A model generated the notes under the pieces. The model worked only from the letters and a program-made list of their open reading frames with translations, had not been told where the DNA came from and made no database searches. Of a DNA stretch of 64,000 bases, positions 22-58,145 are shown piece by piece. The position numbers and the translations under genes are program-made. The stretch's first letter is position 1. Every line of letters starts with the position of its first letter. The DNA is from Sipunculus nudus (taxonomy: Eukaryota; Annelida; Sipuncula; Golfingiida; Sipunculidae). The stretch lies in NCBI GenBank assembly GCA_026874595.1, contig CM049307.1, forward strand, positions 60,974,370 through 61,038,369, written 5' to 3'.

Positions 22-280
22 TTAGTAAAAGCAATATCTAAATACAGACTCGAAAGCAGTAAGAAATAAGAACTGCTGATATTTACAGTTACGAGTAAAA
101 ACTATCCAATCAGCGTAGCTCAACCAGAAGGCGTTATTTTTCTGGTTCAGATTTTCCCTCATCTCGACCTTTTCGTTGCCGATATAGATGTATTTGTATC
201 TTTCATTGGTGAAAGGTTCCCAGGTCACGTGGCCCTCCGTTTCCACGCCAGGTGCAGGGAGGGGCTCAGGTGTGGGGTTC
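22..280 (-). CDS. Copy A exon 10: C-terminal exon (residues 509-593)
   Basis: Acceptor TTTTTTGTAG|GAACC. It encodes NPTPEPLPAPG, then RYKYIYIGNEKVEMRENLN and [13 protein letters not shown], all matching copy B. The following 25 residues to the TAA at 22-24 do not match copy B. Either the tail evolved freely or the exon really ends at a donor after WIVF and continues outside the window. Confidence 0.75.
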
Positions 281-2903
281 CTACAAAAAAAAATAAAGCG
301 TCTCAAATTTGACGACTTAGCAGTTTTAGTGTAGTAGTTTTGGCATATATACTGGAGCTGAATGTCACGTGGTTTGATCCTCGTTGCAACAAATCTGAAA
401 TTTAAAGCTGGTCAAAAGACGTGTTTTGATGCCCACATTATATTTGACCCGCAACACCTTCTCACCAAACTAGCCACACCTATCTATGAAAACTGACACT
501 TTGTGTTCTGAAATCCTGCGAATCCTACGATCGGTCCTCCGAACATAACCCCTGCCGCCCGAGCTTTTCGGAATAAACGACCCTTTGCTGTAGTTATTAT
601 TACTTTAGCTTGCACTTACCCATATTTGGCAAAATTCGAGAAGAGGGTGATAGAATAGTTGCTGAAGCGTTTGTCTGTGTCAGTCCAAGGAAAGACGGTC
701 ATGAAGTCCAGCTTTGAATCCCGCAACACCTCTGGGTGATCTGGAGCCTGACACCAGCCCCAGTGGAATGGCAGATCTCCGATACCGTGTATCACGCCTG
801 AATAACATCTTCGAGTTAATGAAAACGCTTATAATAACATATTTTTTAACATGCATCAAAATGTCATTCATCTATAACTTTGCGAACCAGATTCTCCATG
901 GGTCAAAAAAGTATTTACCGAAGGATCGAAGACGCTCATTTAGAAGTTTAATTAATTTAACATTTATTAATGTTAAGTTAAAATATTTTCATTATAAGTA
1001 ATCTTGTAGTTTTCATACATGTTGCCTCTGAAAAAAATCTGTATTAGAAAATTTCTTTCAGTGTCAGTAATAATGTTTTCTGTACGTGTTCTGAGAGAAC
1101 ACAGATATATATAAAAATAGTAAGTTTCTCTTCTTTTGAATTTTAAGTTAAAGTATAATTTTGAATTTTTTAGTAATATTGAAATTTTATTGTTTATTTG
1201 TTTTATTTGAATTATTCGTATAAACATCAAATAAAACTTTGTTTCTATCACTGTCAATAATAATTTTAACTCTATTAATTAAAATAAAAATTTTTTTACC
1301 TCTCTACAGGTAAACAAGACAGCTATGATGATTAGGAAAGCTTACCGAACCATTCGGGTAAAATTTGATAGTGCGGACAGCCAAGGTAGGCGAACAGGTA
1401 TTCGTAGGTCTCATTATACTGCGCATGACTCTTCAAACTGTAGTCCAAACTGACACCATAAGCAATGTCTGTAACTGCCTACAATATTCATGAAACTGGA
1501 AACGTAAACAGATAAAAGCATACTGGACCTGTGGACCCATTTTAGGTTTTGTCATTGGCCCTCCTGGGTTGGACCCCTCCTTTTCCTGAATCGTGGATCC
1601 GTATAATGAAGATATAAAATTATAATATATTCATTTTTTGAACTTATAAACATGAAATTTCTGCGTGTGGAGCCTTTCTCTAGCACCTGATGGTATATGC
1701 TTGCTAAAAAGGATAACATAGTCAAAATTCTATGCAGCGGTTAAAACGAAGGAGATTTGGAACGATTCGAACGCGAGGAGTACATATTTGCACATGATAT
1801 CTATTTTTTTTTCAATTTGACCTTGACATAGTTTTTCAAGTCGTGACATAGTTTTCAAAGTCGTGATCGTTCGGCGATTTCCGACCTCCATTCACCTGTC
1901 GTAGTTGATCCCTGTTGTGTTCCGGTTCCTCGTCGTACGGCCAGTCTGTGAAAAAGTACTGCATGGCACGGCTCATGTACTCCTGGGTACCCTGCGGGTC
2001 ACGTGCCAACACCCAGCTGATCATACGGTTCCGGATAATATGATAATGTTCACTCCGATTCCACCCTCTCTCCATGGCCTCAGGTGCGACTGAAAGATAA
2101 AGCTAGGTGTGTTGGACGAGGTACGTACTTAAAGCTACCTGTTCACCTAACTTTTGAAAAATATTTTTTTTTGTGATTTCTGGCTTTCTCTGCGTATATA
2201 TTAATGATCTAAGGGTAATTCTGGTTATAAAATTTTTTTAACGCCTCCGTGAATGTATGAATTTGTTTAAACCTGTTTATCAACAACTTGTGTTTAAACA
2301 AAGCAATGTTGACAAATGCCAAAAGCATGTAACCTAAGTTGATAGGCTGCATATATGCGCAGGTATAAAGAACAAATCACCATGGCTTTGTTGAATTTAA
2401 TAAACACATTGATATAAAACAAAAAAAAAACAGCCTGTGTGCGGTGATATCCACGTTTTCTGGCCTATTTTATAAAAGCTCCAAGGGATTACCTTTAGTT
2501 TATAAAGGTCAGATAGGTGATTGGGCCAATTTAAATTCCAGGGAAAATGAACATGCTCTTTTCAGCAGGTTTAAACTGAATTTTCGGCTTGGTACTCGTT
2601 TTTCCCCGTTAGATTTAACATATTTTATTGTATGTGCGATTGAAAAACAGTGGTACTGCTATGTAAATGCCTCTTGCAGTAATAGTGTACAGTACATTTA
2701 CACAATACAATATTAACTCAAAGAATGAGAATGAACAAAACTTTGTTGGTCACATTCTTTAAATAACCAATTAGATAATTATAATATTGAAACTGCACGA
2801 TCAAGTTTTTTTTTAATTAAAACGTATTATTAAGAAAATAATGATGTCATGTGCTGTGTCCATAATGAAAGATTTTCATTCATAAATATATAGTAAATAT
2901 ATA

Positions 2904-2967
<64 letters not shown>

Positions 2968-4487
2968 GAATTATTTATTATTTAGAGATATTCCGGTTAA
3001 GAAAAGTGAAAGAGCATACAAAGCTTACACGGCAAGAGGTACGTAGTCCCGTCCTCTGACGTGTGGCCGGCCATGACTTTGACGTTTTTGTTGAACCTCC
3101 CCTGGTCTCTGAGTTTGTAAGGATCGTCAGGGAGGATCCCTTCTGGTCCATCAACCACAGGTGCAAATCCCAGACTGATGTAACCGGACTGCAGAGAAAT
3201 AAGTAGACTACATTCTATTGGATTCTTACACGCCAGTGATTTTTTTGTTTTGTTTTTAAATCTTGATTTATTTTTTAGGCATGAAAAACACTGTATAACA
3301 ACTGATATATTCAAAACGAATCTTATGGGTATCATACTGACACAAATTACACACGAGAACTGTATAGAGGAATACTTCTATCACACTATATATGCAGTAT
3401 CTGTTTATATAATATATATAATATATAATATATAGACTTTATATAATAGATAGAGCTTTTTTTTTCTGGGGTGCTCAATCATGCTGCAAAAGTTGGAAAA
3501 TATGGGTATGGATACCTATAATTTCAAGTTTGCAAGGAGATTTTTCATGGACCTTATAGGATGTCAAGTTGAAAGATTCTAGGTCTAGTCATTAAGATTT
3601 GTGCCCTGTTAACAGATGACAGCTACTTTTAAGGTCTCAAAATTTTTTTTAAAAATCGTAAAAAAGAAAAAAAATACAGGTGGCGTAAACAGTCTGCACA
3701 AACTGATGAACCATTCCATGATCAATATCCATGCAAAGAATCATGGTCATCAATGCATTAGTTGTTAAGATACTTGAGCTTTTGTATCGAATTTTCCATT
3801 ATTCTGGGGGGTACCTCAGAGCCCAATAGCTGGAAGAATATGGGTAACAGAGACCTAGTTTTAGGTTTCCAAGGAAATCTTTCATGGACCTCTCCGGATA
3901 GTTAGAAGATTTCAGATTCAGAGGTTACGATTTGTGCCTGGTTGGTTAAAACATATTTACCTGATATTGACCTGATAGACATTTAGAAAAATATAGTTAA
4001 TATAGATAATAGTTACATTACATTTCATGAAATTTTCAACATAAAAAACGTCTTGATGATTTCTGATATGTGAAGACATGATCAAGTATACATTGATTGA
4101 CTATTAAAATGAAATCTGATGACCCATGTAATAAGATAGACATTAATTTATCTGTTTGTCGTCTTCATGGATTTGACATGAAAGAAGTTATTATATCAGG
4201 GATTATATTTTGTAATTGCTCCTGAAGTAGTTGTCGTGCGATTCCTTAGTATGAACACATTAACTCACAGACGGACAGCACGACAGACGGACGGACGCCG
4301 GACAAAGGGTGATCGCTATAGCTCGCACGACTTTCAGTCAGCTTAGCGAAAAAATCGTGATTCGTGAAATGGATCAGTACGGTCAGCAGGTGGCGTGCGC
4401 GCTATGTCTATGTATAGCTCAACTAATCGCGCCCGCTGCAAGCTCGTTTCTACAGAATTTCCCCAGGTTCAGGAGTTATCAAACGTT

Positions 4488-4582
<95 letters not shown>

Positions 4583-7500
4583 TACCGGGTGACAGCTTTT
4601 AGAATGTGGCCATTCCACAGGTTGGCGGAGACATTTAATCGTGTATCGAATCGCTGTCATACTAATAGGCGACTTTATATGGATAGTGTATCAGGAAACA
4701 GACTTTGTCAGAGCCCCGAAAGAAGAGCCTGTTTGGGTTAATTTAAATTAAATATTATGTATTTATATCGTACACGCCTTTATTGTTTTTATTGTAATGT
4801 TGTTAATAACAAAAGTTGTGCTTGCTTTATTCTTTTTTAAGTTTTCACATTTTTTAGTACGGTATAAATAAACGTGTACGACACACTTCTTTTTTAATTT
4901 ACTGTCTTATTATGCAGAATTAGGCGGTAAACTAAATCAGTAATTCAAAATTATAATTAATAGCTACCTAAGTTAGCAACGTATGGCCAGACGAGCTGTT
5001 GTAAGACCCTTATAGTCAAACCTAACTTAGGGGACCACCTCGGAAATGGAACCACTTTATCTCAGTCCCGCTTGGTGATCGTAAATCGGAGGTTTTACTG
5101 TATATATAACATGTAAATATACTTACGATTAGTGTTGGGACGATATGGGTTTTTGATATCATGATAATTATTCAAATTTTATCGCGATATACCGTGATAT
5201 CGCGATATTTTTAATTATATATAATGGCATTAATAAGCCATTAATAATGATATTTATAACAACCACCTTTAAAGTCTTGACTTTATACAAGGGGTTAAGT
5301 ATTAATATCATTTACACCTATTGTGCCAGTACCACAGAAAGACTCATTAAGTGATGTAAGTTGCATGAAGGTCCTGCAGGTGTGCAAGCTTGAGGCGCGG
5401 GAAGTCCTGCTCCCATCGTCAAATCATGCTTGTCAGAACTTTCCATCAGTTTCCTGTAGCTACATAAAAGCCGGAGAATCCCGGCTAATTTTCGGAGAGC
5501 GTGTGATACCAATCATGGCTAAATATACCATCCAAATTTTATATGGCAAAATATGCAACCCGTATGGAATGTTCGATTCAGTTGTGACACTTTTATGTTG
5601 AAATTTTCGTTCCATGCAATAAAAGCATAAATATGTGTATTTATTGCTCTTTAATTATAATGTTATTATCTCCTGGAATTCTCAAGTTTTTGTCCTCTCT
5701 GATTCATCCTGCTACTTCCGGACATTTCCGACTAATCCCGAAGTTTGTAAGCACACGGTTCCACCCACACGCGGACATTTCAGACGAATCCCGAAGTCTG
5801 TAAGCACACGGTTCCACCCACACGCGTGTATTCAAATACATGTGGTTTATAAAAATAAATGTGATTCTTTGAAATAAATTTATTTTGAACCTCAAGGGCT
5901 TGCTTGTGAACCAAAATCGTGAACAAAAAATGATATCGTGGTATCGCGATAATAGGAAAGTTGACGGTATGATAACCGTAGCTGTCAGATATCGTGATAA
6001 TACCGTATACCGGTAACCGTCCCAACCCTACTTACGATATTGTCTACATAAGCGTTCCGGATCTGGTCAAACGTTTTTCCTCTCAGACAGGTGATCATTT
6101 CTTGTGAGGGGCTGACGGGACAGCTCAGCTGGCGGGCTACCTGTCTGGTGTACTCTTCCGGCGGTACACCTGGCGGGTTGTAGGCCCACGGCGACATGTC
6201 AGTCCCGCTGATCATGAGCGCCTGGTGGAACAAACCTGAGCAGACGACAAAACGGAAGTTTTGCTACAATAGGGTGATACCCACAATTCCGTACTTTAAA
6301 TAAGCACCATTTTAACATGTCAATGTTTTTATCATTCAGTTTCCTTGAAAATTACACACTTTCCGCAATAGAAAAAGAAAAATAATATTTCAAAATATTT
6401 TCATCCATGCGAGTTTCGAGTCAGTTGCAAAAACGATTTTGAATTAAAGGTAACCCATCTATATGGCACTGGAATTACACATCTTCCTATATAAAACAAA
6501 AAAAAAAAAAAAGAATTTTCAAGTTCCAGCATATAATATTGTAATCTGTACCAATATCGTACATGTATTCTTTAACGATATATCTTTCAATATGACCAAA
6601 ATATTTAGATTCATGTTAAAAATTTATTGTCAGGATTTGTAAATGCTACTTTATGAAAAAAGGATAATTGTTCTGTCATAAAGATCTGTCCGTAAAGGCT
6701 TCGTTAAATCATAATACAGCTGCTGGTAAGTGGGATATTATCCTCAGGAGTTTTAATTTATGTGGTCGATGCACTCTAAATATCTAAATATCTCTAAATA
6801 TCTGTAAAACTAACATTTTGCCCTAAGGGTACATTCGTTAGAAAACAACACCCTGAACAGAAAAAAAATCTTCCCAAAAAGGCTCTGATAGCCTGAACTG
6901 ATCCAATATTTTCAAGTATTTGAAGACATTTTTTTTTACTTCAAGTTATTTTAAGATGACTATACGTGATCCAGCGCTCAAATTAAAACCAAGCGTGAAC
7001 TAAAAAAGCACCCAGAGAGCTAAAACCCCCGCCAATGCAGCTCATTACCCCCATATGGCATTGTCAGAAATGCAGCATTTTTCCTTTTAAAAAATTCCTC
7101 GACCCAGATGATGATCTGCATCACCCCCACAATTTAATCATTCCTTGTTCCTTTTATCATTGCCGAGCTATCCTGAAAATTTCTTCAAAATCCGGGGGTA
7201 TATGCTGATCAAGTCCAGGAGGATAATAGGTGCAGATAATTTAGTGGTTTATGCAGAGTCTTTATACCTTCAGACTTCGGGGACAAAATATGGAAACCGG
7301 CACTGCTGGCGCCTGCGCTCTGACCGAAGATTGTGACCTTGTTAGGGTTCCCTCCAAAAAACTTGATGTTATCTCTTACGAAAATCAGGGACTCTCGCTG
7401 GTCCCAAAGTCCCCAGTTACCCCTGGCAACGTCGTCTCCTGTGCTAGCAAAACCTGCAAATATTTACGGTTTATTTATTTATGTGCACCTTACAAAAACA

Positions 7501-10500
7501 AAATCCTCATCCTCCCAAAAGTCTAATTCCATTACAGGTATATAAATGACTGAATACTATGTGTATTATTTCACTCTATTACTAGTATTATTTCGTTTTA
7601 CTGGAATGCAAAAGCTTCGAAGCAAAAACATCGCGGAACACGGTTTATTCCCCTTTTACAAGTAACTATTGTTCTGTATGTGAGTAAACACAGTCCATTT
7701 TTACCATAACAAGACTGCGTGACCAGAGGTCCGGCTTTGCGCATGCACGATAACTCTCCAACATTAAAAAAACATGACAGGAGAAATGCAGAAGAAATTA
7801 ACGCCGGTTGGATTGTTGCGGTACAGGGAGCAGGTGGCGAGTGAGTTATGATTATGTTTTGCACCACTGGTCTCGCCAGGTGCAAGATTATTTCCACTTG
7901 TCTACAGGAGTAAGGAGATGGTTCCTGAGCAAAATATTAGCATAATATTGCAAAAAGAAAACACTATACTTCATGTATATTTATCACACCTGGTGTGTGA
8001 ACAGGTCCCATTACAACTACAAATTTACGCACACACACGTATAGATTCTGCTTCTCGCACACTAATTTCTTCGCCTGGTCTACATGGCGCATGGTCCAGT
8101 AAATCGACAAAGTATTAAATTTAATGGGGAATGTTTACATTTTGTAAACAGCAGAAAAAGACACAGCCTACCTATTGCACCAACCCGGTAATTGGCCACG
8201 ACAACTATAACTCCTCTGACGGCGTAGAAGTGACCAGGATACATAACATTGGAACCGCTGGCGTAAGCCCCGCCGTAATAATACACCATCACCGCGTATG
8301 TCTCGTTACCAACAGGCTTGAGAAGAAAAACCATATCGTAACTACATAAACAGAGAAAACGTTGACAGCACGTCTTTACAATCCCTTGATTTGTGTTTTA
8401 TTCAGTAATAAGCCTATTATCAAATGTTCACGTTTATTATAGTACCATATAACCCCATCATGTTTCAGTGCCAGTGCCTGTTCCTTGCCTCGAGAAAAGA
8501 TTTACAAACAGACAGAAAAAAAGATCATGCACCCATATACAGGTCAGGAATAATAAATAAATGTAACTGACGTTATGTTTCAACTCGAAGCTTTTAATTA
8601 AAGCCTAAATAAAATACTAGTAGTTTACATGAAACAGACGGAAGGACATATAAATGTGCAAAAACATAATATCTTTGTTAAAAACGCGGTTATGTTTCAT
8701 GAACTAATTTTGTTTTACATTTCCTGTTTACCATGTTCGTGAGATTCGGACTGGAAATCTATTTACCATTATTTATTTTGGAGGATTCAAAGGTTAGGGT
8801 GCTAATTTTACGGTCATATTATAATTACTTCTCAATGTACATGTATATTGATTTATTATAATTAACCATGTGACATTCAAAAATTAAAAAAAAAAATCGG
8901 ATTCCTTCCTTATTTTTTACGTGTGGTATTCAGACATATTCAGTGTATAGATGTTCATGTTTACATGTAGTGTATAAACGTTCAGACTTACGTGTTCTTT
9001 ATATATGTTCAGACTAAAGTGTACTCTATAGATGTTCAGACTTACTTGTGGTGTATAGATGTTTAGACTTACGTGTGGCGTATAGATGTTTAGACTTACG
9101 TGTGGCGTATAGATGTTTAGACTTACGTGTGGTGAATAGATTTTAAGACTTACGTGTTGTGTACAGATGTGAAGACTGACATGAAGTGTATAGATGTTAA
9201 TTAAGACTTACGTGTGGTGTATTAATGTTAAGACTTACGTGTGGTGTATAGATGTTTAGATGCAGACAGTCTTCCTTGATGTCATTCCAGTCGGGATGGG
9301 TATCCACTCCGCCGCCACATGACGATCGGAATTCAGTGCAGTTCAAGATGCCATTCCAATTCTCTACTGTTTCTGGTTTCTGAATTGATATAGTTATATA
9401 ACAAATATGATATGATTCCGTATAGAGCAGAAAGTTTAGTGTCAACTAGTGTGTTAATCCAGGCTCAAGTGCACTTTTACATTTTACCCATATAAATACT
9501 TGTAAATATTGTTTATGCTATGGATTCAATATTGTTGAGGATGAAGCTCACTTTATGCAAGAGTGTAAATTATATCACGATTTGAGGTTAAAATATATTA
9601 GACAAGACTTGCATTATCCAAGTGAACAAAATTTTATAAAATTATTTAATTTAGATAATCCATTTGAAATATCAAAAGTTGCTGCATATGTGTTTAATTC
9701 GTTTTTGAGGAGACGGAAAATGATAGATGGTTGAATTATGTATTTTAAACAGTACTCACTGTTGACAGCACAATAGATTCATTGTGTACTTAGGTGTGCA
9801 ATAATGTTACATGTGTTTATGGCACGATTGATTAGTCATTTTAAGACTGTTACTTAACATTATATTGTTGTAATTTTTGAACTGACTGTTTATTGAAATG
9901 TAATTATGTTTATCCTCACAGATGATGGCAAAACAGATTTATATGTATGTAGGTATGCAGTTCTGTTACTTGTGTTAATGGCAGTGTTTACTAGAAAATA
10001 TAAGACTGCTACCTTCCATTGGATTGATGTACTTTTTAAAATTGAATATTTATTGAAATGTTTGGAACTTTGGGCCTGAGGCCTTTTTCCTGAATAAAGT
10101 TCTGTTCTGTTCTGTTCATATAAATACTATAACAGGTTCACAATTAGCCATCGTGCGCGGGTGACTCATAGATTTGGGGAGCACTGCCCACAGACCACAC
10201 ATGATGAGTGTGGCGTCTCTGAAATGATATTTCTGTGATTACGACAGCAGTTCTGACAGAAGATCAATCACACCACGTAGGCACGGAAGATTCACAGATT
10301 GTCGTATAAATAACATGTGCCCCAGGTATGATAAATAAGATGAAAAAAATGCATAATAAATATGATGAACTAAGTGCGTTTACAAGAAACGAAATGTGTG
10401 AAAAGGGCCAGCAGTTTTTCAGGGACATAATTAATATGCCAGCTATAGTTCGGGCAAATAATGGAAGTGAAATAACAGGGTTCGTAATACTTTCAAATGT

Positions 10501-11387
10501 TGACTTTTCCAACGGAAAGGCAAAAAAACTTGGTTTTGACTTCCGCAGGAAAATTTGCCTTTCCGCTATAGATGCATCCTATCATCATAATTATGAAAAT
10601 ATCAATCAATTCCGTTTAGATTTTTTTTGGGAGAACGGTTAACCTGCGTCCAAATGGCAACACCCGACAATCTCTTTGTTATGAATGCTGTGACTGAGTA
10701 CCCAGTAACGTATTTCCCTACAAAGTAAGAATGGGGGTGGGGTTAAGACTGACTCCCGGCTCTATTATGCGTCTGCTGCTCTGCATATCACGGAGCTTTA
10801 TGATTTCATCAGCAATGAGAAGCCATAATAGCGCGGGGGACCAGTCTAGCTGGGGGTTTCCAAGTTACCATTATGTGAGGGGAATTTTCGTTTTTACGTG
10901 TTTTATTATGCGTGACGCGGGGAATATTTGGAAGTTCACCATTCCCATAGATTGGTACAAAATGAAAATTAAATGCCTTTCCGGTCACGTGTTTGCATGT
11001 CTGAGACAGGCGTTATTACGACCCCTGCATAAGTAAAGCTAAATAATGGCACATTTTTTTTATGTCACTTGGCATTTGAAATAAACCGAAAATTGCGATC
11101 CTTTCTAGATCTAATAAACACAAAACCATAAAATACGCACATGCTTAAACAAAATGAAGGGCTTAATCTGTTACGAGAGTTAATTGGGAAGTCTTACTCA
11201 CGGCAAAGCGGAGGTCGCCGACTGGTGGTTTGGCAAAGGGAACTCCCTTGAATGATGCGACCTGCTGGCCATCATTTAGAGTGACAACACTGCCCCGGAC
11301 AGAACCATGTCTCGTGTTAACGACCACGCCTGTTGCTGGGAGGAGCAGCCCAGCACAGAGACCGAGCAGTAAACACCAAGACGCCAT
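22..11387 (-). CDS. Carboxylesterase type-B / cholinesterase-like protein, copy A (10 exons)
   Basis: Predicted secreted alpha/beta-hydrolase of 593 residues. Coding exons in transcript order: 11387-11202, 9379-9239, 8316-8172, 7453-7268, 6235-6036, 3188-3029, 2089-1896, 1478-1346, 797-620, 280-22. All introns are GT-AG and frames join without stops. Residues 1-20 look like a signal peptide. Seen motifs: EDCL near 98-101; YGGA at 123-126 where most relatives have HGGG; ASTGDD after 159; FGQSAGAS with nucleophile Ser203; SEDG with Asp332 in the catalytic-acid position; VIHG with His452; and [13 protein letters not shown] near the C-terminus. The family hydrolyses carboxyl esters; non-catalytic neuroligin-like members also exist, and the segments around [10 protein letters not shown] and the C-terminal block resemble those too. 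The triad positions are filled, so activity is plausible, but substrate is unknown. Copy B upstream is a tandem duplicate. The last 25 residues differ completely from copy B, so the true 3' end is uncertain. Confidence 0.88.
620..797 (-). CDS. Copy A exon 9: catalytic-histidine exon (residues 449-507)
   Basis: Acceptor TTATTCAG|GCGTG, donor TATGG|GTAAGT (phase 2). It encodes GVIHGIGDLPFHWGW, with His452 in the family's HG..LP motif, and ends with [11 protein letters not shown], the standard helix before the C-terminal domain. Confidence 0.9.
1346..1478 (-). CDS. Copy A exon 8 (residues 405-448)
   Basis: Acceptor ATTGTAG|GCAGTTAC, donor TTCG|GTAAGC (phase 1), 133 bp. It encodes AVTDIAYGVSLDYSLKSH and [13 protein letters not shown], then LPEWFG. 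It was found by aligning copy B exon 8 to the minus strand here. Confidence 0.88.
1896..2089 (-). CDS. Copy A exon 7 (residues 340-404)
   Basis: Acceptor CTTTCAG|TCGCACC, donor CGACAG|GTGAAT (phase 0). It encodes [15 protein letters not shown] and [21 protein letters not shown], matching copy B exon 7 codon for codon in length. No frame damage is seen. Confidence 0.88.
2905..2965. repeat. (AT)n microsatellite
   Basis: About 60 bp of alternating AT in intron 6 of esterase copy A, just downstream of exon 6. Confidence 0.95.
3029..3188 (-). CDS. Copy A exon 6: catalytic-acid exon (residues 287-339)
   Basis: Acceptor TCTCTGCAG|TCCGG, donor CCGT|GTAAGC (phase 1). It encodes [17 protein letters not shown] and [14 protein letters not shown]. 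Relatives normally read ...DEG here; this protein has EDG, placing Asp332 at the usual Glu position with Glu331 beside it. A 60-bp (AT)n tract lies about 60 bp into the following intron. Confidence 0.9.
3454..4330. repeat. Dispersed repeat related to the GGTGGCGCCACC family
   Basis: Two loosely similar blocks (each with GCCCAATAG/GCTCAATC, TATGGGTA, and an ATGGACCT segment) and one AGGTGGCGTAAAC motif. The 3' end is rich in GACGGACGG, a tail also seen with other copies of this repeat type (20830-20880, 45740-45790). It lies in intron 5 of copy A and shows no ORF. Confidence 0.5.
4491..4580. repeat. (CA)n-(TA)n compound microsatellite
   Basis: About 40 bp of AC repeats run directly into about 50 bp of AT repeats. 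Confidence 0.95.
5130..6030. mobile_element. hAT-like MITE inserted on the exon-5 donor
   Basis: Terminal inverted repeats TAGTGTTGGGACG (left) and CGTCCCAACCCTA (right) are flanked by a perfect 8-bp target duplication CTTACGAT (5122-5129 and 6031-6038). An 8-bp duplication is typical of the hAT superfamily. The interior has subterminal runs of GATATCG-type palindromes and a two-copy direct repeat of about 55 bp near 5718-5825 (CCGAAGTYTGTAAGCACACG), but no transposase ORF. The target duplication contains the splice donor of exon 5. Copy B has no element here. Confidence 0.88.
6036..6235 (-). CDS. Copy A exon 5 (residues 220-286)
   Basis: Acceptor CTGCTCAG|GTTTG, donor ATC|GTAAGT. It encodes [19 protein letters not shown], then SCPVS...MITCLRGKTFDQIRNA, the cysteine-bounded helix pair of the family. 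The donor lies inside the 8-bp target-site duplication of a 901-bp MITE, which begins 5 bp after the exon end. Confidence 0.9.
7268..7453 (-). CDS. Copy A exon 4: nucleophile elbow (residues 158-219)
   Basis: Acceptor TTTGCAG|GTTTTGC, donor GAAG|GTATAA. It encodes [32 protein letters not shown] and [10 protein letters not shown] with the nucleophile Ser203. This is the best conserved exon between the two copies; I count about 8 differences over 63 residues. Confidence 0.92.
8172..8316 (-). CDS. Copy A exon 3: oxyanion-hole strand (residues 110-157)
   Basis: Acceptor CTTCTCAAG|CCTGTTGG, donor ATAG|GTAGGC (phase 1). It encodes AVMVYYYGGAYASGSN then VVVANYRVGAIG. Tyr123 stands where esterases usually have the His of HGGG, and the third Gly is Ala. 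The same change is present in copy B. Confidence 0.88.
8937..9257. repeat. 27-bp minisatellite carrying a 5' splice site
   Basis: About 12 units of roughly 27 bp (plus strand GACTTACGTGTGGTGTATAG then ATGTTTA). Read on the minus strand each unit is the end of exon 2 (TATACACCACAC) followed by GTAAGTC. Eight units keep GTAAGT. One unit near 9193 has a 4-bp insertion (TTAATTAA). Confidence 0.92.
9239..9379 (-). CDS. Copy A exon 2 (residues 63-109)
   Basis: Acceptor ATTCAG|AAACC, donor CAC|GTAAGT. It encodes WNGILNCTEF...SSCGGG and EDCLHLNIYTPH, the family's first cysteine loop (EDCL). The intron side of its donor is the first unit of a 27-bp minisatellite that repeats the exon end and donor (8937-9257). 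Confidence 0.9.
9501..10116 (+). mobile_element. 5'-truncated LINE, 3' end of ORF2 plus 3' UTR
   Basis: The open frame 9501-9734 (77 codons then TGA) begins inside a zinc-knuckle-like motif, CKYC...EDEAHFMQEC, followed by a helical tail ending FLRRRK. This is the usual C-terminus of jockey/CR1-type reverse-transcriptase proteins. A 3' UTR of about 380 bp ends in repeated TGTTC after AATAAAG. The piece is flanked by a perfect 12-bp target duplication CATATAAATACT (9489-9500 and 10117-10128), so this is a clean truncated insertion in intron 1 of copy A, opposite to the gene. Confidence 0.8.
11202..11387 (-). CDS. Copy A exon 1: signal peptide and N-terminal strand
   Basis: Residues 1-62. ATG in a strong context (AAGATGGCG) opens a hydrophobic leader ([20 protein letters not shown]) followed by the family's N-terminal VRG...FKGVPFAKPPVGDLRF block. 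The donor is GCC|GTGAGT. The exon length (186 bp) and phase 0 end are the same as in copy B. Confidence 0.9.
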
Positions 11388-37700: not shown

Positions 37701-40700
37701 AGGCTAATCCATAAAGAATAATGCCTTACACATCTGGTCTTTTGTACGGATTAGATAATGAGAAACAAATTATATATGTCACCAGGCACCCCTAATTGGT
37801 AAAGCTATGCTAAGCTTTCATGCTGAGCCTTTACATGTCTTACCTTAGGGAAGATCAAAATCTTGTTTCTTTACTGACAGGCTCATACATGTATAATACG
37901 TATTTAATTAATGAATTGAATGCAGATGTTTTTACTTTTTGAATGTGTTTGCATCGTCCCATTGGTTAAAGCCTGTTGGAAAAGATCAAACATTTTTATT
38001 TGCAAGATTCTCATCAAAGTGTGTCACGTAGCAGAGGAGATTTCATTTCTAGGTGCAATGTGTTTATGTGTATGTGTGTGCGAACATGTGTGCCTTACAC
38101 GGAAGAAGGTACGTGGTCCCGTCTTCTGACGTGTGACCTCCCATTACCCTGACATTCTTGTTGAAATTTCCACGTTCTCTCAGCCTGTAGGGATCATCAG
38201 GCAGGAAGTGGCCCTCTCCGTCCACGACAGGTGCGAATCCAAGACTGACGTCACCAGACTGCAAATTTTTACTTTCTTACACACCATAGCCAAGCTTGAG
38301 TGAGTATTGTTATAGAGTGCATATAATGATGGACCTTACTGTCCCGCCATTAAAGCCTGTCTTTTTGGCGTAGCGGTTGGAACGCTGGACTTGTGTGCCC
38401 CCGACATGGGTTCTGATCAGCGATCGACCCAACGTTATTTCCTATGGTTGAAAATAACCTTATATTTAAGTCTGTCCACCTAGAAATGAGGGCTCGTCCG
38501 GGATTGCTTTTTTGCGGCCCCGGGGGAAAGGTGGTCTCGTAACAATTACCGCCTCCTAGTTCACCAAAAGTGTGACTTCTTAGAAAACTAGATATTTCTT
38601 TGCACCGCAGGTGCCATAGTATCCCAAGACAGTTAACCCCCCCCCCCCCCCCCCCCCTAAGAATAGGCCCTCCATCTTCAGCAGCATATACTGACACTTG
38701 GCAAACAAATATGGTTTCTTCCATCTATCAACTTGAAAAACAATAATTTTCACCATATGGGGGCCAATACGGCGAATCACGGTGATCAATGGACATGCAT
38801 AGTTTCAGCCCAATCTGTCCATTAGTATTAGACTTATTATGTTCACAGTACTGTCAAGTGGCAATGATGGGGTATTAAAAGGCGCGAAAACAAGAAAAGG
38901 ACAGAAGGTGGCGCCAACTGTCTCCCGCAGAAGACCAAGCTATCAAAGATCTTCGGTCAATTTGATTTTGGACCAATCCATGCATCCGTTATTGAGATAA
39001 ATATGATTTTGTGTGATTTTCATCATATATGGCAATATTTCAGGTCAAAGCTACTCTCATGGGAAAGGTCATGACTCCAATTTAAATATACATAATTCAA
39101 TAACCCATATCTATGTATATGCATAATATGATAGAAATCTGTCCATTAGTTTTTGACTTATAATGCTCACAGTACCGTTTAGTGGCAATGGTGGGGGTAT
39201 TATACGGCACGAAAACAAGAAAAGGATAACAGGTGGCGCCACCAGTCTCCGGTACATGACAACACTACCCAAGATCTTTGGTCAAGTCGATTTTTGGATC
39301 AATCCATACAAGGTTTCTTGAGAAAAGTAAAAAAGTAAAAGCTTTTAATAGATGTGCTCAGTAATGTCACTGTGCATCATAGTATTAAGTTTAACTGAAA
39401 TGTCTTCATTAGCAAATGGAGAAATAAGCTTAATAAAAATGTTTAACCTGATTTGTTCATGAACAACGTAGGCCTGTGAGCTTGACCTTGAACATTTTCA
39501 TACCTAAAATTATAGGGGGGAGGGGGGATTAATAACCATCTATACAATAAATATGTGTAATATGAAAGCAATCGGGTCAGTGGTTGCCGAGTTATAGACT
39601 AAACAATAAACTCTAACCCGGGTTGTCTACGGACGACGCCGAGGCCGACGCCGAGGGTACGAAATGGACTCTCTTGAACTTCGTTCCGGCGAGCTAAAAA
39701 GATCTTGGAGTGACGTTATTTTACCGGGAATTTCTGAGTTCACGCAGACCCTATGCGTGAAAATTGCCTTCAGATATACCCTTCTAAGAAAAAAAGGATT
39801 CGTGATGGGTTTTTTTTCCAAGAACCCTTGATTGTTCTATCTAGAACCATGGTTCCTGCTAGAACCATTTTCTCAGTGAAACGGTTCCATCCAACATTTA
39901 AACAGGGGCGGATCCAGGATTTAGGAAAAGGGGGGGGGGGGGTCCAACCCAGGAGGACTTATGAAAATCCTAAAAAAAAGGTCATCACGTCTGGAAAAGG
40001 GGGGTCCAGGCCCCAAAATTACGTCTAAAACCCCTTAAAAAAGGTTGCTTCGGGTGAAAAAGGGGGGGTCCGGACCCCCTGGACCCCCCCCCCCTGGATC
40101 CGCTTCTGTTTAAAGGTTTATGCCACATCATTTCTTATAATAGGGTTCCAGATGGAACCTTTGTTGTGACCGGATGTCTCGCTATGGGCACATGGAATCA
40201 ATACAGTTACGGTACAAAATCATAGGATTGATTTCCACGCATATATTTGCATGTCTGCATATATGTATGACAACACAGATTAAAGTGTATCTTACTGAAC
40301 ACAGCGTCCCCATGTAACTTGTTATGCATATTGTCCTGCCTAAGTGTCAATGGATACTAAATAACCGCCTCATGTATAAGTTTTGTAGAACCCTAAATGC
40401 TACACAAACTTGCATGTCATTTTATGGAGAAATATTATGATAAATCATCAACATATTGCTATATAGTCCACCAGTAACGGCAAGCACGAATTAGGATTTT
40501 GGAATACAACTAATAACATATAAACGGAAGAAACTTACGAGTTGCTGGATACGTGCACCCCGAATTTCCTCAAAGGATTTACCCCGTAGACAGTTGATCA
40601 TTGATTGAGAGTGATTTAGTGGGCAATCTAGTTGGCTGGCAATCTGCTGGGTGTAGTTTTCCGGGGGCAGAGTTCTTCGGTTGTAAGCCCAGGGTGCCAT

Positions 40701-41471
40701 GTCAGTTCCGCTGATCATGAGAGCCTGGTGGAACAGACCTGCACAGACAAATGACAACAAAAGTTAAGGCCAGACAAAAAAATTGTTTTGTGGACTTGTC
40801 TCTACTATTTTTCACGGTTACTTTTCTATGCGTGTGAATTAAGGTGCACCATTTTTCCGCTGTTACGGTTGCTAATATATTCACTTCTCTCTTTCCATCC
40901 ACCACGTGAATTAATAATGTAAAATAGTTTCATTCATTAAAAAAAATATAAATGAAAATTGAAAATGGATTCAATTTTGTGTTGTTCAAGCGCGTCATTT
41001 CATTAACTGTGGATTTTCTAGGCCGGTAATATAAAAATCAATTTTTATGGAAGCCTACACTGATTTTTTTTAATATATTATTTTTTATTTAGATACCCTA
41101 AAAGTTCTTTCTTTTAGATTTAGATTATGCAGAAGTAAAAGAGTACCTGACATATTGTAAAAAGCTTACGACTTAGGTATCTTCGTTTGCAGTAACATAG
41201 CAATTTGTCAAGGGTTCATAAATGAAATGAGATTTCAGTTTCACCTTCGCGAAAAGCGTAGTAAGGGTAATTTAAGATATTTTCATAACAGAGGAAGAAA
41301 ATAGAGCAAAATAGAAACTTGTCTTATTAAAAATGAATAAAAAATATTATCTTGTGCAAAAATAAATGTTGTGGGAGTACTTTTCTCAAGAAAATGCCAC
41401 AATTTCTACTGCCGTTGATTCTCTGCGGCCTTCCGTGCGGCACTGATGTTACAACAGTCACCACCAGTTCC

Positions 41472-56429: not shown

Positions 56430-58145
56430 GCACCGCAGGTGCCAGAGTATCCCGAGACATAGTATGCCCCCCCCCCCTCTTTAAGAATAGGCCCCCATTT
56501 TTAGCAGCATATACTGACCCTTGGTACATCAATAAAAGCAGGAATTATCATCCAGAAACTAATTTTTTGACAGATGGCTCCTGTGGCCTTGACCTTTGAC
56601 CTGTGACCCCAAAATTGATATTGATCATCCACTTTTATATATAAATCAATAGAGGTCTAGATTAATATATGGATTTCAGGTTTGAAATCCATATATTAAT
56701 CCAAGCTTGAATTATCATCTCGGGAACTAATTTTTTTGACAGATGGCTCTTGTGACCTTCACCTTTGACCTTGTGACCTCGCAATTGACAGGCGTCTTCC
56801 TCTATTGGCAAGGGAACTGTATGTGCAAGATGAAATGTCTGATATGAAATGTTTGGCTGAAAATGCATCCACAATCTTTTTAAAAATGTGTCCTGTGACC
56901 TTGACCTTTGACCTCATGACCCCAAAATCAATTCGGGTCTTGCTTTTCCAATGGGACATATACAAGTCGAGTTTGAAATCTATACATCAATAAAAGCAGG
57001 AATTATCATCCAGAAACTAATTTTTGGACAGAAGGCTCCTGTGACCTTCACCTTTGACCCTGTGACCTCAAAAATGATAGAGCTCTTCCTCTCTTGACAG
57101 GTGAACTATATGTGCAAGATGAAATGTCTGAGATGAAATGTTTGGCTGAAAATGCATCCACAATCTTTTTAAAGATGTGTCCTGTGACCTTGACCTTATG
57201 ACCCCAAAATCAATTCGGGTCTTGCTTTTCCAATGGGACATATACAAGTCAAGTTTGAAATCCATACATCAATAAAAGCAGGAATTATCATCCAGAAACT
57301 AATTTTTGGACAGATAGCTCCTGTGACCTTCACCTTTGACCTTGTGACCTCAAAATTGATATGGATCATCCACTATTGGCAAGTGAGCCATATATTCAAG
57401 ATGGAAGACCTGGGATGAAAGTTTGGCTTAAAATGCATCCACAGTACTTTTTAAGATGTCCAGTGACCCTGACCTTTGACCTCATGACCCTAGATCCTAT
57501 AGGGTTCTTACTTTAGTGGTGGGCCATACATAAGTCCCGTTTGAAATCCATATGGCTATCAACACTGGGGATATCATAAGAGGTTTGTGATTTTCACCAA
57601 ATATGGACACATTAAAGGTCAAGGCCATTCTCATGGTAAAGGTCATGACCCAAATGTAAATGGACCTCATCCCGTAACCCATCTCTCTACATGTGCATAA
57701 TATGAAAGAAATCTGTCCATTAGTTTTTGACTTATAAAGCTTACAGTACTGTCAAGTGGCAATTATGGGGGTATTAAAAAGCGTAAAAACAAGAAAAGGA
57801 TAATAGGTGGCGCCACCAGTTTCCGGTGTATCACAAGGCTATCCAAGATCTTAAGTCACCTTGATTTTTGGACCAGTCCATGTAAGCTTACTTGAGATAT
57901 TTAAGCATTTGTGTTATTTTCAGCAAAAATGGACCTATTCAAGGTCAAGGTCACTCTCCTAGCATAGGTCATGACCCCATTTTAAATAAGCTTCGTCCCC
58001 TTACCTATATCTATACAAATGTAAAGTTTGAAAAAGATCAGTGAAATATTTTTTTAGTTATCCCGCTCACAAGGTTTTTCTGTTGCGGCGGCGGCGGCGG
58101 CGGCAACGGGACCGCCGTGAAACCATAGTATCCCGACTTTGTCTG
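56430..58145. repeat. Dispersed repeat R2, copy 2, with internal tandem array
   Basis: Begins CTTGGCACCGCAGGTGCCAGAG, a C-tract and TTTAAGAATAGGCCC as at 38583. Contains an array 56560-57520 of alternating units of about 140 bp (pairs of about 287 bp), each with a GTGACCTTSACCTTTGACC block and AGGAATTATCATCCAGAAAC or TGAAATGTTTGGCTGAAAAT. Then ACAGTACTGTCAAGTGGCAAT, GGTGGCGCCACCAG, a GGC run and CCATAGTATCCCGACTTTG. The start and end share ATAGTATCCC/GAGTATCCC. Confidence 0.8.

Follow-up and report, generated by a model that had tools for sequence, protein, structure and literature searches.

When a transposon lands on a splice donor and copies it, the splicing machinery is offered the same signal twice, and the locus raises the question of which copy is used. 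We examined such a case in a 64,000-nucleotide stretch of the Sipunculus nudus genome (GenBank assembly GCA_026874595.1, contig CM049307.1, positions 60,974,370 to 61,038,369 of the forward strand; hereafter the window), in which a 901-bp nonautonomous hAT element sits at the end of exon 5 of a carboxylesterase gene, gene A. The locus is a natural test of the choice between two identical splice signals, one on the exon side and one on the intron side, 909 nt apart, and it combines a young, base-perfect donor duplication in one member of an array of four genes with paralogues that act as empty-site controls. With a probability of roughly 0.72 we read it as a young, trans-mobilised hAT insertion at the exon 5 donor, in which the exon-side donor is the main site, leaving the protein unchanged, and the intron-side donor a minor one.

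The 8-mer CTTACGAT is present twice in the window, at 5122-5129 and 6031-6038, as perfect copies 901 bp apart that enclose the element (5130-6030, unstranded); by arithmetic, a predefined element would have matching 8-mers on its two sides by chance with a probability of 4^-8 = 1.5e-5. On the minus strand, which encodes gene A, each copy reads ATCGTAAG, i.e. ATC/GTAAG (the slash marking the exon end), the end of exon 5 and its donor. The exon-side copy holds the final codon of exon 5, ATC (6036-6038, phase 0), followed by GTAAGTAG, and continues into TAGGG of the element, while the intron-side copy, which reads ATC GTAAGTATAT and carries the second, distal donor, continues into TATAT. Both donors are ATC/GTAAGTA and identical from -3 to +7, with a spacing of 909 nt.

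The coding part of gene A within the window extends over 94-11387 (minus strand) and consists of ten exons; joined by way of the exon-side donor, these give a single open frame. Exon 10 had its end placed by eye in both gene A and its paralogue, gene B. The product belongs to the carboxylesterase family (PF00135, COesterase, E 4.1e-128) and its closest solved structures by sequence are cholinesterases (best E 1.1e-80), alignment to which puts the catalytic triad of those enzymes on Ser203, Asp332 and His452 of gene A (putative). Exon 5 (6036-6235, minus strand, 200 nt) ends at codon 286 in phase 0, and its splicing partner, exon 6 (3029-3188, minus strand), encodes the putative triad acid Asp332; the other nine modelled exons measure 133-194 nt, the length of exon 10 depending on the end set by eye.

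The genome (1.43 Gb, 153 contigs) was searched for copies of exon 5 and of the element. Exon 5 with its surroundings matched at four places, all on contig C2 and one per paralogue (A to D), and no second allele of exon 5 was seen among these matches. The four places, together with exons of a third copy and exon 1 of a probable fourth, indicate that the esterase genes, at least four in number, are arrayed in tandem (L053-L056, L116 and L117; contig C2, ~60.908-60.951 Mb). Exon 5 is open and 200 nt long in all four; it ends in CTC/GTAAGT in paralogue B (40539-40738, minus strand), which has no element there, and in ATC/GTAAGT in C and D, for which the exact element end is absent from the fetched loci of ~3.2 kb. 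Because C and D hold ATC/GTAAGT uninterrupted at the homologous exon end, the duplicated 8-mer is, on comparison of the paralogues, the old donor common to this exon, and these paralogues support the doubling of a donor through target-site duplication. Exons 1-9 of gene A agree in length with those of gene B, the two proteins being 75.6% identical over 569 residues, and intron 5 lies at the same place in all three paralogues. An empty counterpart of the intron-side flank was not found, since intron 5 of A gave only short weak matches to those of B and C. A preliminary description of this DNA had proposed an 8-bp target duplication around the 901-bp element, its identity with the last codon of exon 5 plus the donor, two identical donors 909 nt apart with GTAAGT restored by the element, and an uninterrupted copy B; all of these are borne out by the reading frame and the 200-nt length of exon 5, by the paralogues and by the perfect flanks of related copies described below.

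Exon 2 of gene A likewise has many identical donors, in this case through tandem repetition. The donor of exon 2 (9238) sits within a 27-bp tandem array (8942-9260) that holds eight minus-strand GTAAGT (9238 to 8991), of which seven follow CAC, as at the real donor; the second array donor, 27 nt on, would add nine in-frame codons without a stop.

The element, its family and its age

The ends of the element are inverted repeats, TAGTGTTGGGACG (5130-5142) and TAGGGTTGGGACG (6018-6030), 13 bp long and 12/13 complementary. In the genome the 13-base end has 686 exact occurrences, against 40 of the reversed pattern. A family search, with a query offset by two bases from the element, returned 40 places (41 rows, one being an internal second match) with 40 of 712 candidates scored, and the family has therefore at least 40 copies. 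Perfect 8-bp target duplications flank 36 of these 40, all mutually different; of the remaining four, one has a duplication with a single mismatch, and the other three, including a truncated copy, are without any. The duplications are biased to nTnnnnAn, with T at position 2 in 25/37 and A at position 7 in 23/37 (binomial p of 5e-6 and 9e-5 against window composition), and the duplication of the window copy fits both. A 3193-bp relative (L046, C1:73822575-73825767) has a perfect 8-bp duplication and similar ends, which align to those of the window element with 85% identity (79 bp) and 83% identity (121 bp), and its 472-codon frame resembles Hermes transposase (E 5.1e-11) with a BED finger (E 1.1e-9). 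By its ends and its duplications the element is a nonautonomous member of a hAT family. The earlier label of miniature inverted-repeat transposable element is better replaced by nonautonomous hAT element.

Within the element there is a 53-bp tandem duplication (5719-5824, 94% identical), and a subterminal stretch (5145-5241) aligns with its own reverse complement (72% across 100 bp). The window holds no further full-length copy; the end pattern with up to three mismatches gave 16 matches in the window, against 17.8 by chance, and the only mismatch-free ones are the element's own two ends. A separate tandem array in the window (56676-57481) has a unit of ~282 bp in ~2.8 copies.

The window copy has one difference in 901 bp from each of two further copies of the element, L002 and L003, which do not differ from each other. 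Since this single difference stands against a synonymous divergence (dS, Nei-Gojobori) of about 1.35 between genes A and B, the insertion is, judged by divergence, young, far younger than the A-B gene duplication and specific to copy A. Of the two possibilities first put forward, specificity to A or loss in B, the former stands and the latter does not. It is likely that the insertion is polymorphic. Apart from this group of three near-identical copies there is a second tight group, a separate burst, in which 25 of the 40 copies (part of L011-L038) have at most 10 differences from their majority and 35-39 from the window copy.

Target preference or accident

With several hundred insertions in the genome (686 exact ends), a single evident donor hit needs no special targeting, and we give slightly better than even odds to the donor landing being a pure accident in which target preference played no part. 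To this we compared a target profile of 88 sites, built without the window copy from 36 family copies and from 52 additional ends chosen among the first 100 of the 686 listed places. Under this profile ATCGTAAG scores 9.6 times the mean window 8-mer and lies at the 99.3rd percentile, which speaks against accident, but the two subsets differ, with 13.2 times the mean from the 36 and 6.6 times from the 52, and the weaker preference of the latter speaks for it. Across the 18 donors of A and B, a sample that is not independent because the two genes are paralogous, 12 registers were compared: the -3 to +5 register has the best mean weight (3.77, the next being register 0 at 2.36), contrary to pure accident, whereas by median register 0 is as good as -3 to +5 (1.74 against 1.70).

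Element ends were found after GTAAG in five cases, where 0.7 would be expected from window composition and 3.6 under a profile of 37 copies, the window copy among them, and after GTGAG in four; the window's own end is one of these nine. None of the other eight could be placed at an exon end, nor was the element found to supply introns there, as judged by open frames only; open frames of 61, 35 and 32 codons lie beside three of them (L047, L121 and L119), which may yet lie at exon ends. In four of the eight cases the 8-mer was found again at the opposite element end.

The target profile of the family favours donors in the -3 to +5 register by mean weight, so that donor hits may be favoured as well as tolerated. 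We regard as doubtful the wider proposal that animal donors match the target motif preferred by this family, and perhaps by hAT elements at large, in the very register in which the duplication copies the donor (-3 to +5) and the terminal TA of the element completes it (+6 and +7), which would make such hits favoured and self-repairing and thus a recurrent, near-neutral route to longer introns and doubled donors. The locus does suggest a checkable link between the target motif of a transposase and splice sites that could explain harmless growth of some introns, and the overlap of target motif and donor is testable with gene annotation.

Choice between the two donors

We propose that a nonautonomous hAT element, very likely mobilised in trans by a Hermes-like hAT transposase, recently inserted at -3 to +5 of the exon 5 donor of gene A, at a site that before the insertion would read ATCGTAAGTATAT once. 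Filling-in of the staggered 8-bp cut copied the donor, leaving one copy on each side, and the terminal TA of the element provides +6 and +7 of the exon-side donor, as can be read directly. With the exon-side donor in use, intron 5 grows from 1938 to 2847 nt and the message stays as it was, whereas use of the intron-side donor would give a 1109-nt exon with 16 extra codons followed by TGA and a product ending at residue 302, before Asp332 and His452, so that only Ser203 of the triad would remain. The preliminary description had anticipated both outcomes, the former in agreement with the ten exons remaining one open frame and the latter with our conceptual readthrough. The exon-side donor is favoured because the frame is intact and because exon definition prefers short exons. 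It would most likely be the main site, the element leaving as part of intron 5 with the protein unchanged, and the intron-side donor a minor one, whose early-stop product from the 1109-nt exon would probably be degraded.

Several points weigh against this reading. As regards mobilisation, a downstream 174-codon stretch of L046 overlaps the 472-codon frame in another frame and matches hAT-like RNase-H below the cut-off (E 0.2), its transposase activity is only putative, and its own duplication, GTGTACTA, is without A at position 7. As regards the donors, their identity from -3 to +7 means that the site itself gives no preference, and a T at +8, present at the intron-side donor only, is the better fit to U1. 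In RNA folds, which as single-sequence predictions of such length are weak evidence, the mean unpaired probability over +1 to +6 was lower at the exon-side donor in all three settings, although +3 went the opposite way with pairs limited to 200 nt, and the terminal repeats were paired at a mean probability of 0.78 with long-range pairs allowed and 0 without. In vitro competition between close donors favours the site nearer the acceptor, and, given the youth of the insertion, little about selection on it can be read from the intact frame.

The identity of the donors, the folds with their paired terminal repeats, the in vitro preference and the youth of an insertion for which long survival under selection is not implied are equally the case for frequent use of the intron-side donor, by which the element would be retained in exon 5 with a stop 16 codons on and the allele partly or fully knocked down. 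Such use needs a 1109-nt internal exon in a gene whose other modelled exons do not exceed 194 nt, and we consider it unlikely; survival of the gene does not decide on a knock-down, because three paralogues could buffer or hide the loss. That the 8-bp flanks are a chance or element-borne repeat and not a target duplication has a negligible probability, as our analysis found no support for it, the 36 perfectly flanked family copies all have different flanks, and C and D, which lack the element, carry the 8-mer at the corresponding exon end.

Comparison with known systems

Maize Ds insertions that are spliced or that make an intron have reportedly been described by Giroux (1994), Dennis (1988) and Wessler (1991). 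Titles cited in PMC3260210 indicate that such insertions are known, and PMC5432752 simulates Ds1 exonization. The likeness to gene A lies in a hAT insertion within a gene, with an 8-bp duplication and with splicing changed or spared; the difference is that Ds reportedly sits within an exon or carries splice sites of its own, whereas here both donors were copied from the host.

Among hAT transposons, the element is like Hermes, hobo and Ac/Ds in having 8-bp duplications biased to nTnnnnAn, the target pattern given for Hermes in PMC10368747, and in having a relative with similar ends, a Hermes-like frame and a BED finger. It differs in that it is nonautonomous and 901 bp long, with terminal repeats that are only short.

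A further parallel is with introners, whose splice sites, according to PMC9860276, are recruited from target duplications; some introner families take their donor from the duplication, and here the duplication holds the donor. Unlike in introners, an existing donor has been doubled and an existing intron lengthened with no new intron position, and since intron 5 is shared with three paralogues the element falls outside the introner definition. A limited literature search brought up no report that we recognised of a hAT element doubling an existing donor, and a prior description may exist. What sets this case apart from these systems is that an existing donor was doubled and not an intron made, in a gene with three element-free paralogues.
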